NCBI GenBank assembly: GCA_031277165.1
Contig: JAISLT010000066.1
Coordinates: 1-41,034, forward strand
DNA: 41,034 bases
Reading direction: 5' to 3'
Source: Spirochaetaceae bacterium
GTDB lineage: Bacteria > Spirochaetota > Spirochaetia > Treponematales > Breznakiellaceae
In this document: positions 4,664 through 40,128 of the stretch, in pieces
How the letters are laid out: each line of letters opens with the position of its first letter
How positions within the stretch are numbered: position 1 is the stretch's first letter
Notes under the pieces: generated by a model
What the model saw: the letters and a program-made list of their open reading frames with translations, nothing else
What the model was told of the DNA's origin: nothing
Database searches by the model: none
Made by a program: the position numbers and the translations under genes

Positions 4664-5458
4664 ATGGCGGAAAAACTTGAAGTAAAGGAACTGGTCCAGG
4701 TTTTTAATAACCAGGAGGTGCTGCACCGGATTAGTTTTTCCGTTAAGGACGGAGAATTTCTTTCGATTCTGGGGCCTTCCGGCTGTGGTAAAACAACGAT
4801 ACTGCGGATCCTTATCGGCCTTTTGCGGCCCAGTTCCGGACGGATCCTTAAGGACGGCAGGGACATTACGGACCTTCCCGCGTCCAAGCGGAACATGGGT
4901 ATTGTTTTTCAAAACTATGCCCTGTTCCAAAATATGACCGTTTTAGACAATGTGGAGTACGCCTTAAAATTTACCAAGGAATACGGAGGCTCTTCCCGGT
5001 CCAGGGCCGAGAGCCTTATTGAACAGGTGGGGCTTACGGAACATATCCGAAAAAAGCCCCACAAGCTTTCCGGCGGTCAGCAGCAACGGGTGGCCATTGC
5101 CCGGACCCTGGCCATGAACCCGGAAATAATCCTTTTTGACGAACCCATGTCCGCCCTGGATGCCGCCACCCGGCTTTTACTTAGGGACGAAATCAAAGAG
5201 ATACAGAAAAAGTTTCATTCCACCATGATCTATATTACCCATGATCAGGAAGAATCCTTTAGCCTTTCGGACCGGATTATGGTGATGAACCACGGAGTAA
5301 TCCACCAAATCGACACCCCCGGGGAGATCATCAAAAATCCTGCGGGGGACTTTGTCCGGGATTTTGTGATCACCAACCTGCAAAGAAAGGTTAATTCCCT
5401 GGCCAAATATATGGGGATAAACGCCCCGGATAATGGGAAGCCTGTTCATGGCATTTAG
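4664..5458 (+). CDS. ABC importer ATPase
   Basis: The 264-residue protein is the cytoplasmic ATP-hydrolysing subunit of the importer. It has a Walker A motif GPSGCGKTT near residues 38-46, a Q-loop FQNYALFQ, the signature LSGGQQQRVAIART and Walker B IILFDEP followed by MSALDA and the switch histidine in THDQEE. These features match the PotA/FbpC/PhnT class. A 99-base gap separates it from the binding-protein gene, which would allow more of the receptor than the transporter to be made. Its 3' end overlaps the permease gene. AAGGA lies nine bases before the ATG. Confidence 0.92.
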   Translation: MAEKLEVKELVQVFNNQEVLHRISFSVKDGEFLSILGPSGCGKTTILRILIGLLRPSSGRILKDGRDITDLPASKRNMGIVFQNYALFQNMTVLDNVEYALKFTKEYGGSSRSRAESLIEQVGLTEHIRKKPHKLSGGQQQRVAIARTLAMNPEIILFDEPMSALDAATRLLLRDEIKEIQKKFHSTMIYITHDQEESFSLSDRIMVMNHGVIHQIDTPGEIIKNPAGDFVRDFVITNLQRKVNSLAKYMGINAPDNGKPVHGI

Positions 5459-7049
5459 AGGGTCCGGCGGCTTAGGCGTTCCGGTTAAGCTGGTTTTGGG
5501 GGTTTTTTTAACATTTTCTCTGATCCTGCCCCTGGCCGGAATGCTCTACAACATGTCCGGCACGGACATGGCTTCGGTGGTATCCTCTCCCCGGTTTAGA
5601 GAAGCCCTGGTTCACTCGGTAATTTCCGCCGGAACGGGGACGGTAATTTCCATTGTCTTTGCCTGGTTCTTTGCCCTGGCGGTGGTACGCAGCAAAATGC
5701 CCTTCCGCACTATTTTTGCCGTACTGGGGACGGTCCCCATGCTGATCCCTTCGATTTCCCACGGCATGGGACTGGTACTTTTGCTGGGTTCCAACGGGGT
5801 TTTAACCCGGTTCCTGGGGCTTCCCCACCCTATCTATGGCTTTTGGGGCATTGCCGCCGGTTCTGTACTGTATGCCTTTCCCGTGGCTTTTTTAATGTTG
5901 GCGGATATTCTTACCTACGAGGACGGCTCCCCCTACGAAGCCGCCACGGTTTTAGGGATCCCCAGGATCAGACAGTTTTTGTCCATCACCTTCCCCTATC
6001 TTAGAAAGCCCTTGATCTCCGTGGTCTTTGCCGTTTTTACCTTGATTTTTACCGATTACGGCGTACCCCTTATGATAGGAGGACGCTACACCACCCTTCC
6101 GGTATTGATGTACCAGGAAGTGATCGGCCTTCTTAACTTTAACCGGGGCAGCGTCATAGGCTCTTTTCTTCTTATTCCCGCCCTGGGGGCTTTTCTCTTT
6201 GATGTATTTAACAAGGACCGGGGAAATCAAAATTTTACCGCCCAGGAAAAGGCCCTTTCCGGCAAGCCCCTTAGGGATGGACTGGCCATGAGCTACTGTA
6301 TAATTGTTTGCTCTGTTATAGCGTCTCCCCTTGCTGTGTTTGCCTTTTTAAGCATAATCAACAAGTATCCCACGGATATGTCCTTTTCCTTTGCCAATAT
6401 TCTGCGGACCATGGACCTGGGGGCGGGACGGTATCTGATCAACTCCATCAGCATTGCCCTGGGGGTTTCCGTACTGGGGACGATCCTTTCCTATACGATT
6501 GCCTGCTTTACCGCCCGGACTCCGGGAAAATCCTCGAAGGCGCTTCACCTTATCTCCATCACATCCCTGGCGGTGCCGGGGCTGGTGTTGGGCATATCCT
6601 ATGTGCTTTTTTTTAAGGGATCGATCCTCTATGGGGGAATCGGAATGTTAATCCTGGTAAATACCATCCACTTTTTAGCGTCCCCCTACCTTTTGGCCTA
6701 TAATTCTCTGGGTAAATTGAATCCCCATCTGGAGGACGTGGGGCAAACCCTGGGGGTGGGACGGTTTTTTATTATCCGGGATGTGCTTATTCCCCAAACC
6801 CGGCAGACAATTCTGGAAATGGCTTCTTACTTTTTTGTCAATTCCATGATGACTATTTCTGCGGTATCTTTTTTAAGTACCGTGCGGAATAAACCCGTCT
6901 CGTTAATGATAAACCAATTCGAAGCCCAGCTTTTTCTTGAAGGGGCGGCCTTTGTTTCTATCCTTATCCTGGGATGTAATTTAACCGTAAAATTGATAGT
7001 ATATTTAATTAAGAGGTTTACAGTTGAATCTTTCACGGCCTCAATTTGA
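5448..7049 (+). CDS. ABC importer permease with two fused transmembrane halves
   Basis: This roughly 533-residue inner-membrane protein holds about twelve helices in two homologous halves. Each half carries an EAA-type loop: EAATVLGIPRIRQFLSITFP in the first and the LEDVGQTLGVGRFFIIRDVLIP region in the second. Fusion of both halves is usual for ferric-iron and some 2-aminoethylphosphonate importers. I chose the ATG at 5448, with GGGAAG seven bases upstream; an in-frame ATG at 5433 is possible. It overlaps the ATPase gene and the following regulator/transferase gene, so all four cistrons are probably translationally coupled. Confidence 0.88.
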   Translation: MAFRGSGGLGVPVKLVLGVFLTFSLILPLAGMLYNMSGTDMASVVSSPRFREALVHSVISAGTGTVISIVFAWFFALAVVRSKMPFRTIFAVLGTVPMLIPSISHGMGLVLLLGSNGVLTRFLGLPHPIYGFWGIAAGSVLYAFPVAFLMLADILTYEDGSPYEAATVLGIPRIRQFLSITFPYLRKPLISVVFAVFTLIFTDYGVPLMIGGRYTTLPVLMYQEVIGLLNFNRGSVIGSFLLIPALGAFLFDVFNKDRGNQNFTAQEKALSGKPLRDGLAMSYCIIVCSVIASPLAVFAFLSIINKYPTDMSFSFANILRTMDLGAGRYLINSISIALGVSVLGTILSYTIACFTARTPGKSSKALHLISITSLAVPGLVLGISYVLFFKGSILYGGIGMLILVNTIHFLASPYLLAYNSLGKLNPHLEDVGQTLGVGRFFIIRDVLIPQTRQTILEMASYFFVNSMMTISAVSFLSTVRNKPVSLMINQFEAQLFLEGAAFVSILILGCNLTVKLIVYLIKRFTVESFTASI

Positions 7050-19886: not shown

Positions 19887-21314
19887 ATGAAAAAAACCGA
19901 GCGGGTTGAACTGTTGGTATTGAACAAACCCGGCGTGTTAGGCCGGGTGGCGGGGCATATACGCCGCGAGGGCTGGAACATTAAACGGCTTATGGTGGAC
20001 GAGCTGGATGCCGAAGATTCCGGCGGCGCCGGGGATTACGCCGGAGTGTCCCGGATGGAGATAGACATCGAGGGTACCCATACTAAGCTTGCCCAGGTGA
20101 TGGACCGGGTTCTTAACCTGGACTGTGTGATCAGCATCAGCATGATCCAGGATGGAAAAAAAGCCGTCCGCAGCCGTCCCCGAGAAAAGGTCCTGCGAAG
20201 GGCCGATCTTGAACAAACAATTAAGGCCCCCGCAAAAAAAGAGGGGCGCTTCCGCATCCTGGCGATTAACCCCGGTTCGACCTCTACCAAATTCAGCGTC
20301 TACGATGACGAAACCTGCATACTTTCTAAAAAAATACAGCACGATTCGGCGCAGCTTGCCCGGTTTGGTTCCGTACTGAAACAAAAGGAACTGCGCCGGA
20401 ACTGTATTATAAAAAGCCTTGAAGAAGCGGAAATAGCCGTATCTTCCCTGGATGCCATTGCAGGCCGGGGCGGTCTTTTAAAGCCCATCGAAAGCGGAAC
20501 CTATAGCATTGGTCCCAAGATGCTGGAGGATCTTCACTCTGCCACCGCGGCAATTCATGCATCGGCCCTGGGGGCAATTATTGCCGCAGAAATGGCCGAA
20601 TCCTTTTCTATCCCCGCCTATGTGGTGGATCCCATTGTGGTGGACGAAATGGATCGCAATGCCAAGCTTACCGGCATGCCCGGGGTGGAACGGTCCAGTG
20701 TCTTCCACGCGCTGAATCAAAAGGCCATTGCCAGACGGCTTGCGGCGGAACTGGGAATGCCCTACGAGAACACCCGGTTTATTGTGGCCCACCTGGGCGG
20801 GGGAATTACCATTGGAGCCCACCGTTACGGCAGGGTCATTGACGTTAACGACGCCCTTTCCGGCGAAGGTCCCTTTACGCCGGAAAGAACCGGGGCCATT
20901 CCGGTTATTCCGGTTATCAACATGTGTTTTTCCGGGGAATATACCGAAGCGGAGATGATCGAGCGGGTCACCAAAAAAGGCGGAATGCGGGCTTATCTGG
21001 GTACGGAGGATATCCGGGTTGTACAGAAGATGATTAACGACGGGGATGAATTTGCTGCCCTGGTATTGGATTCCATGGCCTATCAGGTGGCAAAAGAAAT
21101 TGGCGCCATGGGGACGGTGCTGGAGGGCCTGGTAGACGCCATTATCCTTACCGGGGGCCTTGCCCATTCCACCCGCTTTACCGGAGCCATTAAACAGCGG
21201 GTGGACAAGCTTGCGCCGGTTCATGTTTTTCCCGGCGAAGACGAAATGATTGCCCTGGTGGAGGGAGTCCTTCGGGTGCTTGTGGGGAAGGAACAGGCTG
21301 CCCAGTATAGTTAG
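19887..21314 (+). CDS. ACT domain - butyrate kinase fusion
   Basis: Residues about 5-88 form an ACT domain like that of the acetolactate synthase small subunit (ELLVLNKPGVLGRVAGHIRR, NIKRL, SRMEIDIEG). After a basic linker, residues 121-475 form an acetate/butyrate kinase: phosphate motif LAINPGSTSTK (128-135), GRGG, the IHASALGAI region, IVAHLGGGITIGAH and AIILTGGLAHS. Butyrate kinases interconvert (branched) acyl-phosphate plus ADP with fatty acid plus ATP. Ordinary Buk is about 355 residues and lacks ACT. An ACT domain suggests control by a branched-chain amino acid. GGGAG is eight bases before the ATG; a GTG at 19878 is an alternative. The VOR genes nearby fit the same pathway. Confidence 0.88.
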   Translation: MKKTERVELLVLNKPGVLGRVAGHIRREGWNIKRLMVDELDAEDSGGAGDYAGVSRMEIDIEGTHTKLAQVMDRVLNLDCVISISMIQDGKKAVRSRPREKVLRRADLEQTIKAPAKKEGRFRILAINPGSTSTKFSVYDDETCILSKKIQHDSAQLARFGSVLKQKELRRNCIIKSLEEAEIAVSSLDAIAGRGGLLKPIESGTYSIGPKMLEDLHSATAAIHASALGAIIAAEMAESFSIPAYVVDPIVVDEMDRNAKLTGMPGVERSSVFHALNQKAIARRLAAELGMPYENTRFIVAHLGGGITIGAHRYGRVIDVNDALSGEGPFTPERTGAIPVIPVINMCFSGEYTEAEMIERVTKKGGMRAYLGTEDIRVVQKMINDGDEFAALVLDSMAYQVAKEIGAMGTVLEGLVDAIILTGGLAHSTRFTGAIKQRVDKLAPVHVFPGEDEMIALVEGVLRVLVGKEQAAQYS

Positions 21315-22583: not shown

Positions 22584-23150
22584 ATGAAGAACGTATGGAT
22601 TGCCAGTCTTTTTCTCTTTTTTTCTTTTCCGCTTTGGTCCCAGGGGAATCCCCAGGGTTCTGCCGGCGGATCGGCGGAGCAGGCCGCTGCCGAAACGCCG
22701 GCGGCTGTAGCGGCGGCCGCTGTGGAAGAAGCGGAACTTCCCGAACTTGATATAGAGACCCTTCTTCGGCAGCGTATTACGGAACTGGCCCAGGAACACC
22801 TGGGGGTTCCCTATAAATATGCGGGGGTTACCCCCGAAGGCTTTGACTGCACCGGGCTGGTGTATTTTGTATACCGGGAGGCGGCGGGGATGGAAGTGTC
22901 CCGTTCCAGCGTGGGCATTTGGAACAGCGGAAAAAAAATTCCCCTGGCCCAGGTGCAGCCAGGGGACGTGCTGGTATTTACCACCGTCCGCCCCGGAGCC
23001 AGCCATGCCGGGATAGTCCTTGAAAACGGCCCCGGGGGGATACTTTTTATTCACGCCGCATCCCAGGGGTCTAAAACCGGGGTGATTATTTCCAACCTTA
23101 ACGAAAATTACTACAGGGCCCGGATTATGGGAGCCCGCAGCTATTTTTAA
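22584..23150 (+). CDS. NlpC/P60 peptidoglycan endopeptidase
   Basis: The enzyme should cut peptide stems of the cell wall in the periplasm. A signal peptide (MKNVWIASLFLFFSFPLWSQ) is followed by an Ala/Glu-rich spacer and then the NlpC/P60 domain: catalytic Cys in FDCTGLVYFVYR, His in SHAGIVL and the third polar residue His in FIHAAS. The length (188 residues) is normal for a minimal secreted member. I start at 22584 because the signal peptide begins there; longer in-frame starts would bury it. Its TAA stop overlaps the vorC stop on the other strand by sharing TTAA. Confidence 0.88.
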   Translation: MKNVWIASLFLFFSFPLWSQGNPQGSAGGSAEQAAAETPAAVAAAAVEEAELPELDIETLLRQRITELAQEHLGVPYKYAGVTPEGFDCTGLVYFVYREAAGMEVSRSSVGIWNSGKKIPLAQVQPGDVLVFTTVRPGASHAGIVLENGPGGILFIHAASQGSKTGVIISNLNENYYRARIMGARSYF

Positions 23151-23680
23151 ACCGTCCCAAAGCCCATCTTAATTGCTTCCACATTTTTGGGAATAAATTT
23201 GTGCTTATCCGGGGAAAAGAAGTTTTCCAGGATCCCCTCAATTTCTGTTAAGGCCAGGGCGCCGGTTAATTTTGCCATTGCCCCCAGGGCTATCATATTG
23301 GCAAAACGCAGGCTGCCTATCTTTTCGGCTAAGGCGGATGCCTCAAGCTTTACCACCCTAATGTTATCCCGGCGGGGATCTTCCTTAACCAGGCTGGAAT
23401 TTATGATCATAAGCCCCCCGTCCTTAAGGATCCCTTCGCAAATAGGAAGGGAATCGCCGTTCATTACCAGGGCCGAATCGGGGGTGGTCACCAGCGGGCT
23501 GGCAATTTCATCGTCGGAAACAATTACGCTGGCCCGGGCTACGCCGCCCCGTTTTTCCGCCCCATAAAAAGGAAAAAAGGTAACGTTTTTTCCTTCTTTC
23601 ATAGCGCAGTACACCCAGATCTGTCCCAGGGAAACGATCCCTTGGCCGCCGAATCCGGCAAAGAAGGATTTTTCTGTCAT
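23147..23680 (-). CDS. vorC: 2-oxoacid:ferredoxin oxidoreductase, gamma subunit (VorC-like)
   Basis: The gamma subunit of the pyruvate/2-oxoacid ferredoxin oxidoreductase family helps shape the CoA site. The 177-residue product has the hallmark FAGFGGQGIVSLGQI at the start, FFPFYGAEKRGGVARASVIVSDD and ALGAMAKLTG. I place the start at 23680; AAGGAG lies 12 bases upstream. Unlike the other subunits, it is separated from the gene before it by 240 bases of non-coding DNA, so it may have its own promoter or be kept on the transcript through several hairpins. Confidence 0.88.
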   Translation of the reverse strand: MTEKSFFAGFGGQGIVSLGQIWVYCAMKEGKNVTFFPFYGAEKRGGVARASVIVSDDEIASPLVTTPDSALVMNGDSLPICEGILKDGGLMIINSSLVKEDPRRDNIRVVKLEASALAEKIGSLRFANMIALGAMAKLTGALALTEIEGILENFFSPDKHKFIPKNVEAIKMGFGTV

Positions 23681-23920
23681 GTATGCTATATGCTCCTTAT
23701 ACACCGCAGATTTAATGAAAGGCCAAACCGGATTTTAGTCCGATTTAACCGGTTCTTCCAAGCGCAGTCAAAACCTAACCGGGTTTTGGGAAATGCCCCA
23801 GCTGTTTGCTGCACTCCGCATATAAATTGTATAAAAATTCACGGAAGTGAATATTTATACCCCGTACAACAGGCTCCCGGCATATGCGTTCCGCCGGCAT
23901 CTTCCTTTGAAAGGGGTTGT
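23681..23920. repeat. Hairpin- and repeat-filled gap inside the vor operon
   Basis: This 240-base gap has no gene. It contains a 32-bp inverted repeat (23829-23842 with 23847-23860, one mismatch), the dispersed hairpin repeat (23769-23800) and a copy of the AGCCTGTTGT element on the minus strand (23866-23880). It also has an AACCGG...CCGGTT hairpin at about 23725-23753. Elsewhere in the window these elements lie between transcription units, not within one. Confidence 0.55.
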
Positions 23921-24727
23921 TCATGCGGCGTCCCCGGCTTTTTGGCTTCCGGGGATTGCCGCGGCGGTTCGGACGGCCCCGGTTCCAAGGGTGTTTTTTA
24001 TTTCCCCCAGGGGAAATGCGGGGATCATGTTGTCTTCCAGCCATTCCACGGCCTGGCCGGGATCCATGCTCCAGTTTGTTGGACAGGGGGAAAGGATCTC
24101 TACCATGGTAAACCCAATCCCCGCCATTTGAGCTTCAAAGGCCTTTTTGATATAGCCCTGGGTTTTACGGGTATTGGCGGCGTTGTTTACCGACCCCCGG
24201 GCTATGTACCGGGTTCCGTCCAGTTGGGCCAGCAGCTCGCAGACCCGCATGGGGTAACCCATCCCGGCCTGGCCGGGATCCCTTCCATAGGGGGCGGTTG
24301 AAGCTTTCTGGCCCACCAGGGTTGTGGGGGCCATTTGTCCGCCGGTCATGCCGTAGATGGCGTTATTTACAAAAATAGTGGTGAACCGTTCGCCGCGGTT
24401 TGCCGCATGGATCATCTCTGCCGTACCAATGGCGGCCAAATCCCCGTCTCCCTGGTAGCAGATTACCAGATGATCCGGCAGGACCCGCTTAACTCCGGTG
24501 GCCGCCGCCGGGGTTCTGCCGTGGGGAGGCTGAACCGAGTCGAAGTTAAAGTAAAGGTCCGCCCAAATAGCGCAGCCCACGGGATTCGTTATTATCGCCC
24601 TGCTCCGCAGCCCCATTTCGTCGATCAGCTGGGCAATGATCCGGTGTATAACCCCATGGCCGCAGCCCCCGCAGTATTTTGTCTGAACCCGGCATAGGCT
24701 TTCCGGATATCCGTAGAGTTTTTTCAT
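23921..24727 (-). CDS. vorA: 2-oxoacid:ferredoxin oxidoreductase, beta (TPP) subunit (VorA-like)
   Basis: This 268-residue subunit binds thiamine diphosphate. It has the cluster/TPP-site cysteines in TKYCGGCGHG, the Mg-TPP motif GDGDLAAIGTAEMIHAANR followed by NNAIYGMTGGQ, and NPVGCAIWADLYF. These match the 3-methyl-2-oxobutanoate/2-oxoglutarate branch of the family rather than pyruvate enzymes. The start is the ATG overlapping the vorB stop (ATGA, 24724-24727); the upstream reading frame has no family resemblance. Ferredoxin is the electron acceptor, and the reaction is reversible in anaerobes. Confidence 0.9.
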   Translation of the reverse strand: MKKLYGYPESLCRVQTKYCGGCGHGVIHRIIAQLIDEMGLRSRAIITNPVGCAIWADLYFNFDSVQPPHGRTPAAATGVKRVLPDHLVICYQGDGDLAAIGTAEMIHAANRGERFTTIFVNNAIYGMTGGQMAPTTLVGQKASTAPYGRDPGQAGMGYPMRVCELLAQLDGTRYIARGSVNNAANTRKTQGYIKKAFEAQMAGIGFTMVEILSPCPTNWSMDPGQAVEWLEDNMIPAFPLGEIKNTLGTGAVRTAAAIPGSQKAGDAA

Positions 24728-25845
24728 TTTCCCAATATCCTCTTTATCTCTTGAAAAACTTCCTCTTCCGTGGGGATAACACCCCCGGAATGGCCCAGTA
24801 AATGCACCCCCTCCCGGGAAGAAGATCCTGGGGCTTCCAGGAGGGAAAGCCTTACGTCTTCTACAAGCTGCCCTAGGCTCATTTCCACCGTGAGGAGGGG
24901 AGCCCCTGCGGCGGCGATTTTTCCCAGGGCCTTGTACGGAAAGGGCCACAGGGTGATGGGCCTAAAAATAGCCGCCCTAATCCCCGCCTTTTCCGCAAGC
25001 TGTTTGGCCCCCAGGCAAACCCTGGCGCTGGTTCCGTAGGCCACCATGGTAATTTCCGCATCCGCAAAGGTTTCGCCCTCTCCGTAAAAAACCGTTCCGG
25101 CCTTAAAGGGCCCTGAATATTCGTAGCTGGTTTCCGCGGCTTTAATTTCATCGTACCGTTTGTACCGCTCCAGGGTGATCTGTTCAAGTTCTTCGGGAAC
25201 CAGATGGATCGAGGTGATATGCCGGGGATCCCGGTTCTGCATGTTTCCCACAACCCAATCCCTTCGGGGAAGTTCTGCGGGGGATTTTTCCCTGGGTAAA
25301 ACCACCCCTTCCATCATCTGGCCCAGCATGCCGTCGGCGAGGATGATCACCGGCATACGGTATTTGCCGGCCAGGTCAAAGGCCCGGTAGGTAAAATCGG
25401 CACATTCCTGAACGCTTTTTGGTCCCAGAACAATACAGTAATAGTCGCCGTGGCCCCCGCCCCGGGTAGATTGAAAATAATCCGCCTGGGAGGGGGCAAT
25501 GGAACCAAGCCCCGGACCGCCCCGGACCACATTAACCAGTACCAGGGGTATATCCGCCCCGGCGGCATAGGACATCCCTTCCTGTTTAAGGCTGATTCCG
25601 GGGCTGGAAGAACTGGTCATGGCCCGGCTTCCCGCACAGGATGCGCCGTAGACCATGTTGATGGCGGCGGTTTCGCTTTCGGCCTGGATAAATATCCGAT
25701 CCTTATCCAGCATATGCTTTGCCATATAGCTGGTGATCTCGTTTTGGGGCGTAATAGGATAGCCAAAATAAGCATCGCAACCGGCCCGGATGGCGGCCTC
25801 GCTTATCGCTTCGTTCCCCTTCATTAATACTTTTTCACTGTCCAT
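24724..25845 (-). CDS. vorB: 2-oxoacid:ferredoxin oxidoreductase, alpha subunit (VorB-like)
   Basis: The alpha subunit forms the substrate pocket with VorA. The 373-residue product begins MDSEKVLMKGNEAISEAAIR and continues with CDAYFGYPITPQNEI, TSSSSPGISLKQEGMSYA and VVRGGPGLGSIAPSQADYF, a pattern I associate with VorB (branched-chain 2-oxoacid) and with KorA. Substrate choice between 2-oxoisovalerate and 2-oxoglutarate cannot be settled by eye, but the nearby butyrate kinase favours a branched-chain role. I start at 25845 (GGGGG five bases upstream); an in-frame ATG at 25893 would add 16 atypical residues. Confidence 0.88.
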   Translation of the reverse strand: MDSEKVLMKGNEAISEAAIRAGCDAYFGYPITPQNEITSYMAKHMLDKDRIFIQAESETAAINMVYGASCAGSRAMTSSSSPGISLKQEGMSYAAGADIPLVLVNVVRGGPGLGSIAPSQADYFQSTRGGGHGDYYCIVLGPKSVQECADFTYRAFDLAGKYRMPVIILADGMLGQMMEGVVLPREKSPAELPRRDWVVGNMQNRDPRHITSIHLVPEELEQITLERYKRYDEIKAAETSYEYSGPFKAGTVFYGEGETFADAEITMVAYGTSARVCLGAKQLAEKAGIRAAIFRPITLWPFPYKALGKIAAAGAPLLTVEMSLGQLVEDVRLSLLEAPGSSSREGVHLLGHSGGVIPTEEEVFQEIKRILGK

Positions 25846-25911
25846 GGCGGCCCCCATACCGGCACGACTGGCCGGGAATAACGATGCCCCCATTACACAA
25901 GCGGCAGAGTT

Positions 25912-26142
25912 TCATGCTTCCGCTCCTTCCAATTCGTAGATTTCTATACACACATCCGGACAAACCTGGTAACAATTCCCGCAGGCGATACATTTTTCCG
26001 GGGATGCCACGACCGGCGGGTAAAGCCCCTGGGAATTTAACGACCGGTCTTTTTCCAGGATCTTTACCGGACAGGCCCTGATGCACAGGTAACAGCCCTT
26101 GCACAGTTCCCGGTCAATGATAATTTTTCCCCTTCTTGCCAT
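25912..26142 (-). CDS. vorD: 2-oxoacid:ferredoxin oxidoreductase, ferredoxin-like subunit (VorD-like)
   Basis: This 76-residue subunit carries two [4Fe-4S] clusters that pass electrons to external ferredoxin. Both binding motifs are visible: CKGCYLCIRACP near residues 14-25 and CIACGNCYQVCP near residues 52-63. It is the first gene of the vor operon. AAGGAGG lies 11 bases before the ATG. Longer in-frame starts would run through the leader hairpins and are unlikely. Confidence 0.9.
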   Translation of the reverse strand: MARRGKIIIDRELCKGCYLCIRACPVKILEKDRSLNSQGLYPPVVASPEKCIACGNCYQVCPDVCIEIYELEGAEA

Positions 26143-26198
26143 TTGGTAAACAGCCTCCTTGCCATGGGCAAACTTTGTATTTCCACCGGACAGCTTGC

Positions 26199-26245
26199 TG
26201 CGCCTGGCGCATACCCAAAAAACCGGCGGGATGCCGGGTTTTTTT
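26199..26245 (-). promoter_or_regulatory. Hairpins in the vor operon leader
   Basis: Read on the minus strand, a CCGGC/GCCGG hairpin with A7 before and T6 after (26217-26245) looks like an intrinsic terminator. It is followed by a TGCGCC/GGCGCA hairpin (26199-26211). They end 57 bases before vorD. Since the upstream gene is divergent, there is no obvious transcript to end other than vor's own, so an attenuator is plausible; a bidirectional barrier is the alternative. Confidence 0.4.
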
Positions 26246-26379
26246 CTTTGCAGACTGCGAAGGGATGCCTTCTTGCGGAGGGGTCCCATACCCTTGCCAA
26301 TCTGCGGCGGGACGGTTCATTCGCAGTGGGGAACAGTATATACAAATGGGTTTTTTTTATCTACCATGGGAACAAACAA

Positions 26380-27153
26380 GTGGATAAAAAAACATGGGCG
26401 GCCCTTGTTCCCCTTATAGGGCGGTATAGATCTTTTACCACAGAGCTTGACGCCGAGCTTCCCGGCCTGGCAGGGTTTGTACAGCGCTTGGTTGATGAAC
26501 GGAAGGGCCCTTCGTATACTGTAAAAAACCCCGTGGTGTATAACGGCGCATTGGACGATATCGATTCCCGGGATCAAATAAAAATGATCCTGGTAGGGGA
26601 TAATCCAGGCAGACGGGAACAGGAACAGGGACGTTACTTAATAGGACCTTCGGGAAAGATCGCCGAAACATTTTTTCGGAACCGTCCCGAGTTGGCCGTG
26701 GATTTTAGGAAAAACGTGCTTATCCTTAACAAGACCCCGATCCACACCCCCCGGACTGCGGAACTAAAGGAGCTGTGCCGGCTGGGGGGCAAGAAGCTTG
26801 CCGGGGCGGTGTTTTCTTCCCAGCGGACCATGGCGGACCTGCTGTATGAATTTTGGAAGGCCCTGGCCGGCTCGGGAAACGCCGGATCTTCAGGAACCGC
26901 AGGGAAGGGGCCGGTACTTTGGATCATCGGTTATTCGGAAATGAAGGCCGGAGGCATTTTTGAAGCCTATACAGAAAAACTTAAAGAGCTGTCCGGGGCG
27001 GATCGGCTGTTTAAAGAGGCGATCTTTTTTTTCCGGCATTTTTCTATGAACCAGTTTTCCATCGACCTGAATAAAAAAGCCCTGCCTAAAGAGCCGCTGC
27101 GCCAAAGCCTTGAACGAATCGGCGCCGAATACCGCCGGCGAATTCTGGGGTAA
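26380..27153 (+). CDS. Uracil-DNA-glycosylase-fold protein (putative)
   Basis: The 258-residue product has ILVGDNPGRREQEQGRYLIGPSGK near residues 70-93, resembling the GxxPG water-activating loop of the uracil-DNA glycosylase superfamily. NVLILNKTPIHTPRT and a C-terminal FFRHFSMNQFSIDL that could stand for the HPS-type motif follow. The usual iron-sulfur cysteines of family 4/5 enzymes are absent. DNA repair is therefore only suggested. I start at a GTG (26380, GGGAA upstream) because the ORF upstream covers the divergent promoter and vor leader. Confidence 0.5.
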   Translation: MDKKTWAALVPLIGRYRSFTTELDAELPGLAGFVQRLVDERKGPSYTVKNPVVYNGALDDIDSRDQIKMILVGDNPGRREQEQGRYLIGPSGKIAETFFRNRPELAVDFRKNVLILNKTPIHTPRTAELKELCRLGGKKLAGAVFSSQRTMADLLYEFWKALAGSGNAGSSGTAGKGPVLWIIGYSEMKAGGIFEAYTEKLKELSGADRLFKEAIFFFRHFSMNQFSIDLNKKALPKEPLRQSLERIGAEYRRRILG

Positions 27154-39216: not shown

Positions 39217-39243
39217 TAATAAGAACCTATGAACGGAGGATAT

Positions 39244-40128
39244 ATGATCGATACCAGTGAACTTATTATACCCTACGGCGCCGCCCTTCCCACCGAAGGA
39301 GCCTTGGCAATCGACGCCGCCCGGTACGGCCCAAAACAACGGCCGCCCAAAATTCCCGTGGGGGATTTTAAGCGGGATTTGCCGGTGTACCTGTTTTTAG
39401 GGGGCCTGGCGGTTTTAACGATCCTTTCCCTGGGGATCCTGCGGCTTGACTGGGTAAAGGTGGTAAACCGGCTTCCCAAACTGGGACAGGTTTTTTACGA
39501 GATGGTCCATTTTTCGACCGAGCGTTTTCACCTGACCATGCTTACCTTAACCGAAACCATCACCGTGTCTCTTTTAGCGCTGATCTACGGCCTTTTGGCG
39601 GGCTTGGTTTTGGGAGCCCTGGCCGCCCGGAATATCACCCCCTGGAAGCCTCTGCCGGCGATTCTAAAGAGTTTCTTTTCGTTTATCCGGGCAGTGCCAA
39701 CCCCGGTGTGGGTATTGCTGGTACTGGCCTCGATGGGTTTTGGCATGGCCTCGGGGATCATGGGGCTGGGTTTTCATGTGGCAGGTTTTTTTGGGAAGGT
39801 GTTCTCTCAGATTTTTGAAGAGATTCCCGAGGAAACCGTGGAAGCCCTTAGGGCCGCCGGGGCCGGACGGATTCAAATTTTTTTTGGAGCGATTCTGCCT
39901 TCCTCCATATCGGGAATTATTGCGTGGACCGCCCTGCGGTTTGAAACCAACTATATAGAAGCTGCCATCCTGGGCATGGTAGGCGCCGGGGGCGTGGGCT
40001 ATACAATCCTTGCGGCCATGAACAGCTACAAACTAGGACGGGCCGGACTTGCCATACTTGTGGTTTTTGCCTTTGCCCTGGGGATCGAGCTTCTTACGAC
40101 CTTTGTTAAACGAAAAGTACGAATTTGA
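39244..40128 (+). CDS. phnE: PhnE-type phosphonate ABC permease, second copy
   Basis: The 294-residue inner-membrane protein resembles the first PhnE: FIRAVPTPVWVLLVLASMGFGMASGIMGLG, EETVEALRAAGAGRIQIFFGAILPSSISG and AAILGMVGAGGVGYTILAAMNSY. It has a longer hydrophilic N-terminus (about 45 residues) before the first helix. I start at 39244 because GGAGG is just upstream, although the spacing is short; an ATG at 39229 is possible. A 126-base gap separates it from the first permease. Confidence 0.92.
   Translation: MIDTSELIIPYGAALPTEGALAIDAARYGPKQRPPKIPVGDFKRDLPVYLFLGGLAVLTILSLGILRLDWVKVVNRLPKLGQVFYEMVHFSTERFHLTMLTLTETITVSLLALIYGLLAGLVLGALAARNITPWKPLPAILKSFFSFIRAVPTPVWVLLVLASMGFGMASGIMGLGFHVAGFFGKVFSQIFEEIPEETVEALRAAGAGRIQIFFGAILPSSISGIIAWTALRFETNYIEAAILGMVGAGGVGYTILAAMNSYKLGRAGLAILVVFAFALGIELLTTFVKRKVRI

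Follow-up and report, generated by a model that had tools for sequence, protein, structure and literature searches.

The window analysed here, a whole stretch of 41,034 nucleotides from a Spirochaetaceae bacterium, encodes a butyrate kinase that carries an N-terminal ACT domain of the AHAS small subunit type. This fusion is a real protein architecture. Comparative analysis demonstrates that the fusion is conserved and that both of its domains are intact; its kinase groups with the kinases of Ptb–Buk–VOR operons, and its ACT domain keeps the residues of a predicted AHAS-type ligand site. The best explanation, to which we assign a probability of about 0.55, is that the protein would be an allosteric kinase of short- or branched-chain acids that responds to branched-chain amino acids and was released from the Ptb operon.

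Organization of the fused gene

The gene occupies positions 19887..21314 of the + strand as one frame of 475 codons, from ATG 19887 to the stop codon at 21312-21314. The longest frame starts with GTG 19878; homologues start at or near ATG 19887, and a GGGAG stretch is located upstream of this ATG. The ACT domain (residues about 5-90) is encoded at 19899..20156, the linker (residues about 91-121) at 20157..20249, and the butyrate kinase domain (residues 122-475) at 20250..21311, all on the + strand. The earlier note had read this frame as an ACT domain joined to a complete butyrate kinase, and this holds: the PF22629 and TIGR02707 profiles match over their cut-offs, both parts fold accordingly in AlphaFold2, and 25 further loci carry a frame with the same two domains. 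Because the 26 fusions come from separate records, neither chance nor a frameshift or misjoined assembly accounts for the architecture.

The use of an internal start, which would make the two domains separate proteins and had been named as grounds for abandoning the fusion, was rejected for the region just before the kinase. The window has no ATG, GTG, or TTG among the 25 codons preceding the NPGST motif, and clade-wide there is no conserved position for an internal start near the kinase.

Profile and residue evidence identify the kinase as a butyrate kinase. The NCBIfam butyrate kinase equivalog TIGR02707 matches residues 123-471 with 495.1 bits (cut-off 289.1). A sequence search of the PDB with the whole protein returns only acetate, propionate, and butyrate kinases, and the kinase domain matches 1saz/1x9j with an E value of about 1e-105. 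In the AlphaFold2 model, residues 122-475 adopt the butyrate kinase fold (1saz, rmsd 1.4). The catalytic residues N128, S133, T134, R194, H224, D248, H274, H302, and R334 are invariant in the fusions, and the residues characteristic of ASKHA acyl kinases (NPGSTSTK, R194, H224, D248, H274, H302, and R334) are invariant or nearly so in both the fused and the unfused sets. Some replacements are specific to the fused clade; for example, residue 227, located after the H-A-S motif, is N in most unfused kinases and A, S, or T here, and D or P at residue 257 is replaced by R.

The ACT domain and its predicted ligand site

The Pfam family ACT_AHAS_ss (PF22629) matches residues 8-82 with 39.2 bits against a curated gathering cut-off of 27. 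The profile of the whole AHAS regulatory subunit, TIGR00119, reaches 35.2 bits against a cut-off of 56.9 and matches with its N-terminal half only; with this score and without the C-terminal domain, the whole protein was rejected as an IlvN. The earlier assignment of the domain to the IlvN-like type is borne out by PDB searches and by the site residues described below. The ACT part searched alone finds AHAS small subunits, and its profile likewise, together with one weak match to a hypothetical protein; the best six profile matches range from 6e-12 to 3e-6.

According to AlphaFold2, residues 4-88 follow the ACT order beta-alpha-beta-beta-alpha-beta (E4-12, H17-28, E32-40, E54-62, H68-76, E81-88). 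The mean pLDDT is 90.9 for the whole protein and 76.4 for the ACT part modelled alone, for which the alignment is shallow. The ACT model is superimposed on E. coli IlvH (2f1f_B) with a VIA Z of 11.8 and an rmsd of 2.0 over 81 aligned residues.

The passage of PMC11893703 that cites Kaplun 2006 lists L9, N11, L16, N29, and V35 as the valine contacts of E. coli IlvH. Both sequence and structure alignments place V11, N13, L18, N31, and V37 of the fusion at these positions, within a predicted amino-acid site segment (residues 11-37; 19917..19997, + strand). Four of the five are identical to IlvH and one is a change from L to V, and all are invariant in the alignment of 25 ACT sequences. As 23 of the 88 columns are invariant, five out of five would be expected by chance with a probability of about 9e-4, a figure that partly reflects the general ACT motif. 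The same valine-site pattern is present in the genuine IlvN of the window's genome. The N...G...N pattern is common to ACT domains of several specificities, so the residue match leaves the identity of the amino acid unsettled.

Structural scores similar to that of IlvH are also obtained with ACT folds of many specificities, and the invariant residues R26, E28, and W30 of the fused ACT family set it apart from IlvH. Together with the TIGR00119 score below its cut-off, this would fit a domain whose ligand is a different amino acid, a 2-oxoacid, or an acid, or whose main role is in oligomerisation or protein contacts. We consider this rather unlikely, since every PDB sequence match of the ACT profile with an E value below 1e-3 is an AHAS small subunit and none of the five IlvH valine positions varies.

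Distribution, selection, and genomic context

A scan of 84,980 species genomes, which required an exact peptide word and may therefore have let more distant fusions escape, yielded 28 relatives: 25 full fusions (62-88% identity) and three unfused kinases. With the window's own copy, ACT plus kinase is found at 26 loci in treponemes and Bacillota. By record name, the carriers are treponemes or other Spirochaetota, Oscillospiraceae, Christensenellaceae, Peptococcaceae, and one unplaced Bacillota. Many of their isolate names resemble gut metagenome bins, and many of these genomes are probably from termite gut. In the window's family, the fusion is present in 21 of 200 genomes, one copy being broken by contig ends; the 179 genomes without it show that the life style does not require it. 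It was not seen outside this family in a sample of the phylum, and the sampled Bacillota groups contain it only in genomes already known. The counts are 1/391 in the class of genome G074 (the query centre itself), 1/398 in the phylum of G078 (again the query centre), and G000 only among 393 genomes of its phylum; the absence of the fusion elsewhere holds for the genomes sampled.

In a quick tree, the fused kinases form one clade (SH-aLRT 87), to which an unfused treponeme kinase (L081, 57% identity) and an unfused Bacillota kinase (L061, about 55%) are nearest. The treponeme and Bacillota fusions are 62-72% identical, which points to transfer between phyla, in either direction. Every unfused match begins at about residue 98-124 of the fusion query and has no ACT domain, in agreement with the earlier statement that butyrate kinases otherwise lack one. 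The unfused treponeme kinase (L081 2868-3956, - strand; genome G245) has a start that resembles the end of the fusion's linker (KKQGAFRIL versus KKEGRFRIL). No ACT remnant was seen before this kinase, and no Ptb was found over the threshold in G245. The L081 kinase may date from before the fusion, or it may have lost its ACT domain later.

Purifying selection on the ACT core is as strong as on the kinase, while the linker drifts. In the 26 fusions, 47% of ACT columns 5-40 are invariant versus 41% of the kinase columns and none in the linker, where the mean pairwise identity is 30%. Comparison of the window with the two relatives in its genus gives dN/dS values of 0.04-0.07 for the core segments of the ACT domain and 0.07-0.09 for the kinase; a variable loop (residues 41-55) lifts the value for the whole ACT domain to about 0.1. 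For the linker, dN/dS is about 0.2-0.4 within the genus (0.22-0.28 for the window versus the two relatives), and its pLDDT is low at residues 101-105. The basic linker of the earlier note is indeed basic in the window; its sequence is not conserved across the fusions.

The most pronounced difference between fused and unfused kinases is in their association with Ptb. This gene lies beside the kinase in none of 26 fused loci versus 44 of 56 unfused loci (Fisher 1.6e-12; flanks of up to 8 kb for fused and mostly 1.5 kb for unfused loci), and the fusion cannot be classed as a Ptb–Buk pair. Among the 18 nearest Clostridia-type unfused relatives, Ptb is found within 1.5 kb in 16 and VorB in 14. For whole genomes, Ptb was assigned from profile scores, with kinase-adjacent matches at or above 260 bits, Pta-type matches under 70, and no Ptb match reaching the NCBI cut-off of 410. 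Within the family, the genomes that have Ptb on this basis are 3 of the 18 with only a fused kinase (fused-only), 13 of the 16 with only an unfused kinase (unfused-only), and 3 of the 163 lacking Buk (Buk-less); it was not detected in the window's genome, in 15 of the 18 fused-only genomes, or in any of the three genomes of the same genus (80-82% complete). Judged by gene order, the fused gene has left the Ptb operon.

In the fused-only genomes G021, G239, and G241, a Ptb gene lies at a distance from the fusion. Such kinase-distant genes are located at L082 5258-6208 (- strand), G239:C1:63451, and G241:C7:43105. Ptb and the fusion may cooperate in some genomes, because distant Ptb is commoner in fused-only than in Buk-less genomes (p 0.014).

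A VOR-like 2-oxoacid:ferredoxin oxidoreductase operon (gamma, beta, VorB alpha, and ferredoxin delta; 23150..26289, - strand) lies 2 kb from the fusion in the window, an arrangement seen only within the genus. VorB occurs in 118 of the family's 179 genomes without the fusion and in 16 of the 21 with it (p 0.46). Because VorB is as frequent without the fusion, the neighbouring operon is not specific evidence, and VOR as the specific partner of the fusion is unsupported, with co-occurrence not enriched and no synteny beyond the genus. The fusion has no conserved neighbourhood beyond near relatives, and no gene of fatty acid metabolism was recognised by eye among its neighbours. Nucleotide-metabolism genes near several loci (5'-nucleotidase, GMP synthase-like, and ribonucleotide reductase-like, mostly identified by eye) were taken as chance. 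Elsewhere in the window, an otherwise unassigned 336 aa frame at 26143-27153 (+) has a weak uracil-DNA glycosylase match at residues 144-207, just below the Pfam cut-off, and 5433-7049 and 39229-40128 (+) encode permeases related to phosphonate uptake, PhnU2-like and PhnE-like, respectively, below curated cut-offs.

The proximity of VOR, its presence in most of the family's fusion genomes (16/21), the reversibility of the kinase reaction, and the Ptb–Buk–VOR operons of the nearest unfused relatives would be compatible with feed-forward control of amino-acid fermentation, in which branched-chain amino acids activate the kinase and ATP is formed from VOR-derived acyl phosphates. We regard this as unlikely: no Ptb that would supply the acyl phosphate was detected in most fusion genomes, the window's included, and VOR is equally frequent without the fusion. 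A change of substrate, by which the kinase would have ceased to act on short-chain fatty acids and the ACT domain would regulate an unrelated step, is improbable. The consistent absence of adjacent Ptb from the fusion loci, the replacements at residues 227 and 257, and the lack of recognisable fatty acid genes nearby might suggest it, but the TIGR02707 equivalog score (495 versus 289) and the invariant catalytic and phosphate-binding residues speak against it.

Proposed function and comparison with known systems

The preferred reading, an allosteric acid kinase responsive to branched-chain amino acids, would work as follows. The enzyme would catalyse the reversible reaction of a short- or branched-chain acid and ATP to acyl phosphate and ADP, presumably in the direction of acyl-phosphate formation. 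ACT domains from two subunits would pair, and a branched-chain amino acid, most likely valine, would bind at their interface via N13, L18, N31, and V37. The flexible linker would pass the change on to the kinase and alter its activity, probably by inhibition rather than activation. Branched acids (isobutyrate, 2-methylbutyrate, and isovalerate) are the likelier substrates, because the nearest unfused relatives are in Ptb–Buk–VOR operons. That the gene has left this operon and would usually work without Ptb is more readily reconciled with acid activation under product control than with a Ptb–Buk pair that yields ATP at the end of a fermentation. Pta is the only candidate found for the enzyme that would take over the acyl phosphate.

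The window's genome encodes IlvN followed by LeuA of the de novo route, as well as Pta and an acetate-kinase-like gene. An apparent branched-chain amino acid ABC transporter cluster, recognised by eye, is located on the same contig as ilvN-leuA (L088 1989-5371, - strand). Because IlvN and LeuA are present, a salvage role is not required. The core of the gate between branched fatty acids and amino acids proposed in the earlier note survives, and a specific gate of this kind is plausible from the comparative data; Ptb being mostly missing, VOR not enriched, and the genome having its own IlvN and LeuA weigh on the other side. It is a tentative and somewhat doubtful extension that, in gut treponemes and some Clostridia, a Ptb-independent acid kinase gated by branched-chain amino acids controls how short branched acids are salvaged, and that it moved between phyla as a unit. 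If true, it would be a regulated entry point of acyl phosphates not described before. The conserved fusion with loss of the transferase would place the handling of short branched acids under allosteric control by amino-acid status and would be a natural sensor–enzyme fusion for acyl-phosphate metabolism.

To our knowledge, short-chain acid kinases are usually regarded as enzymes that work near equilibrium and have no dedicated allosteric domain. A literature search, with subscription papers and domain-architecture databases outside its scope, found no paper describing a butyrate kinase with an ACT domain. The nearest known role is that of Listeria Buk/Ptb, where, according to PMC10026030, exogenous branched acids are activated to branched acyl-CoA primers; as in our proposal, an acid kinase would act on outside acids. 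That paper describes a two-gene system with Ptb and makes no mention of ACT, whereas Ptb was not found in the window's genome.

When compared with IlvN/IlvH (TIGR00119; PDB 2f1f, 5ypp, and 2fgc), the fusion shares the ACT fold, the profile match, and the five valine-site positions. However, IlvH has a C-terminal domain, whereas the fusion has only the N-terminal ACT domain, in cis with a kinase and below the TIGR00119 cut-off, and the window's genome has a separate true IlvN besides it. Thermotoga maritima Buk2 (TIGR02707; PDB 1saz/1x9j) is matched over the whole catalytic domain with about 49% identity, the fold TM being 0.91-0.93 on the target and the catalytic residues being kept. Ordinary butyrate kinases normally adjoin Ptb, whereas the fusion never does; Buk2 and every unfused match are without an ACT domain, and to this kinase the fusion adds an N-terminal ACT domain and a linker.
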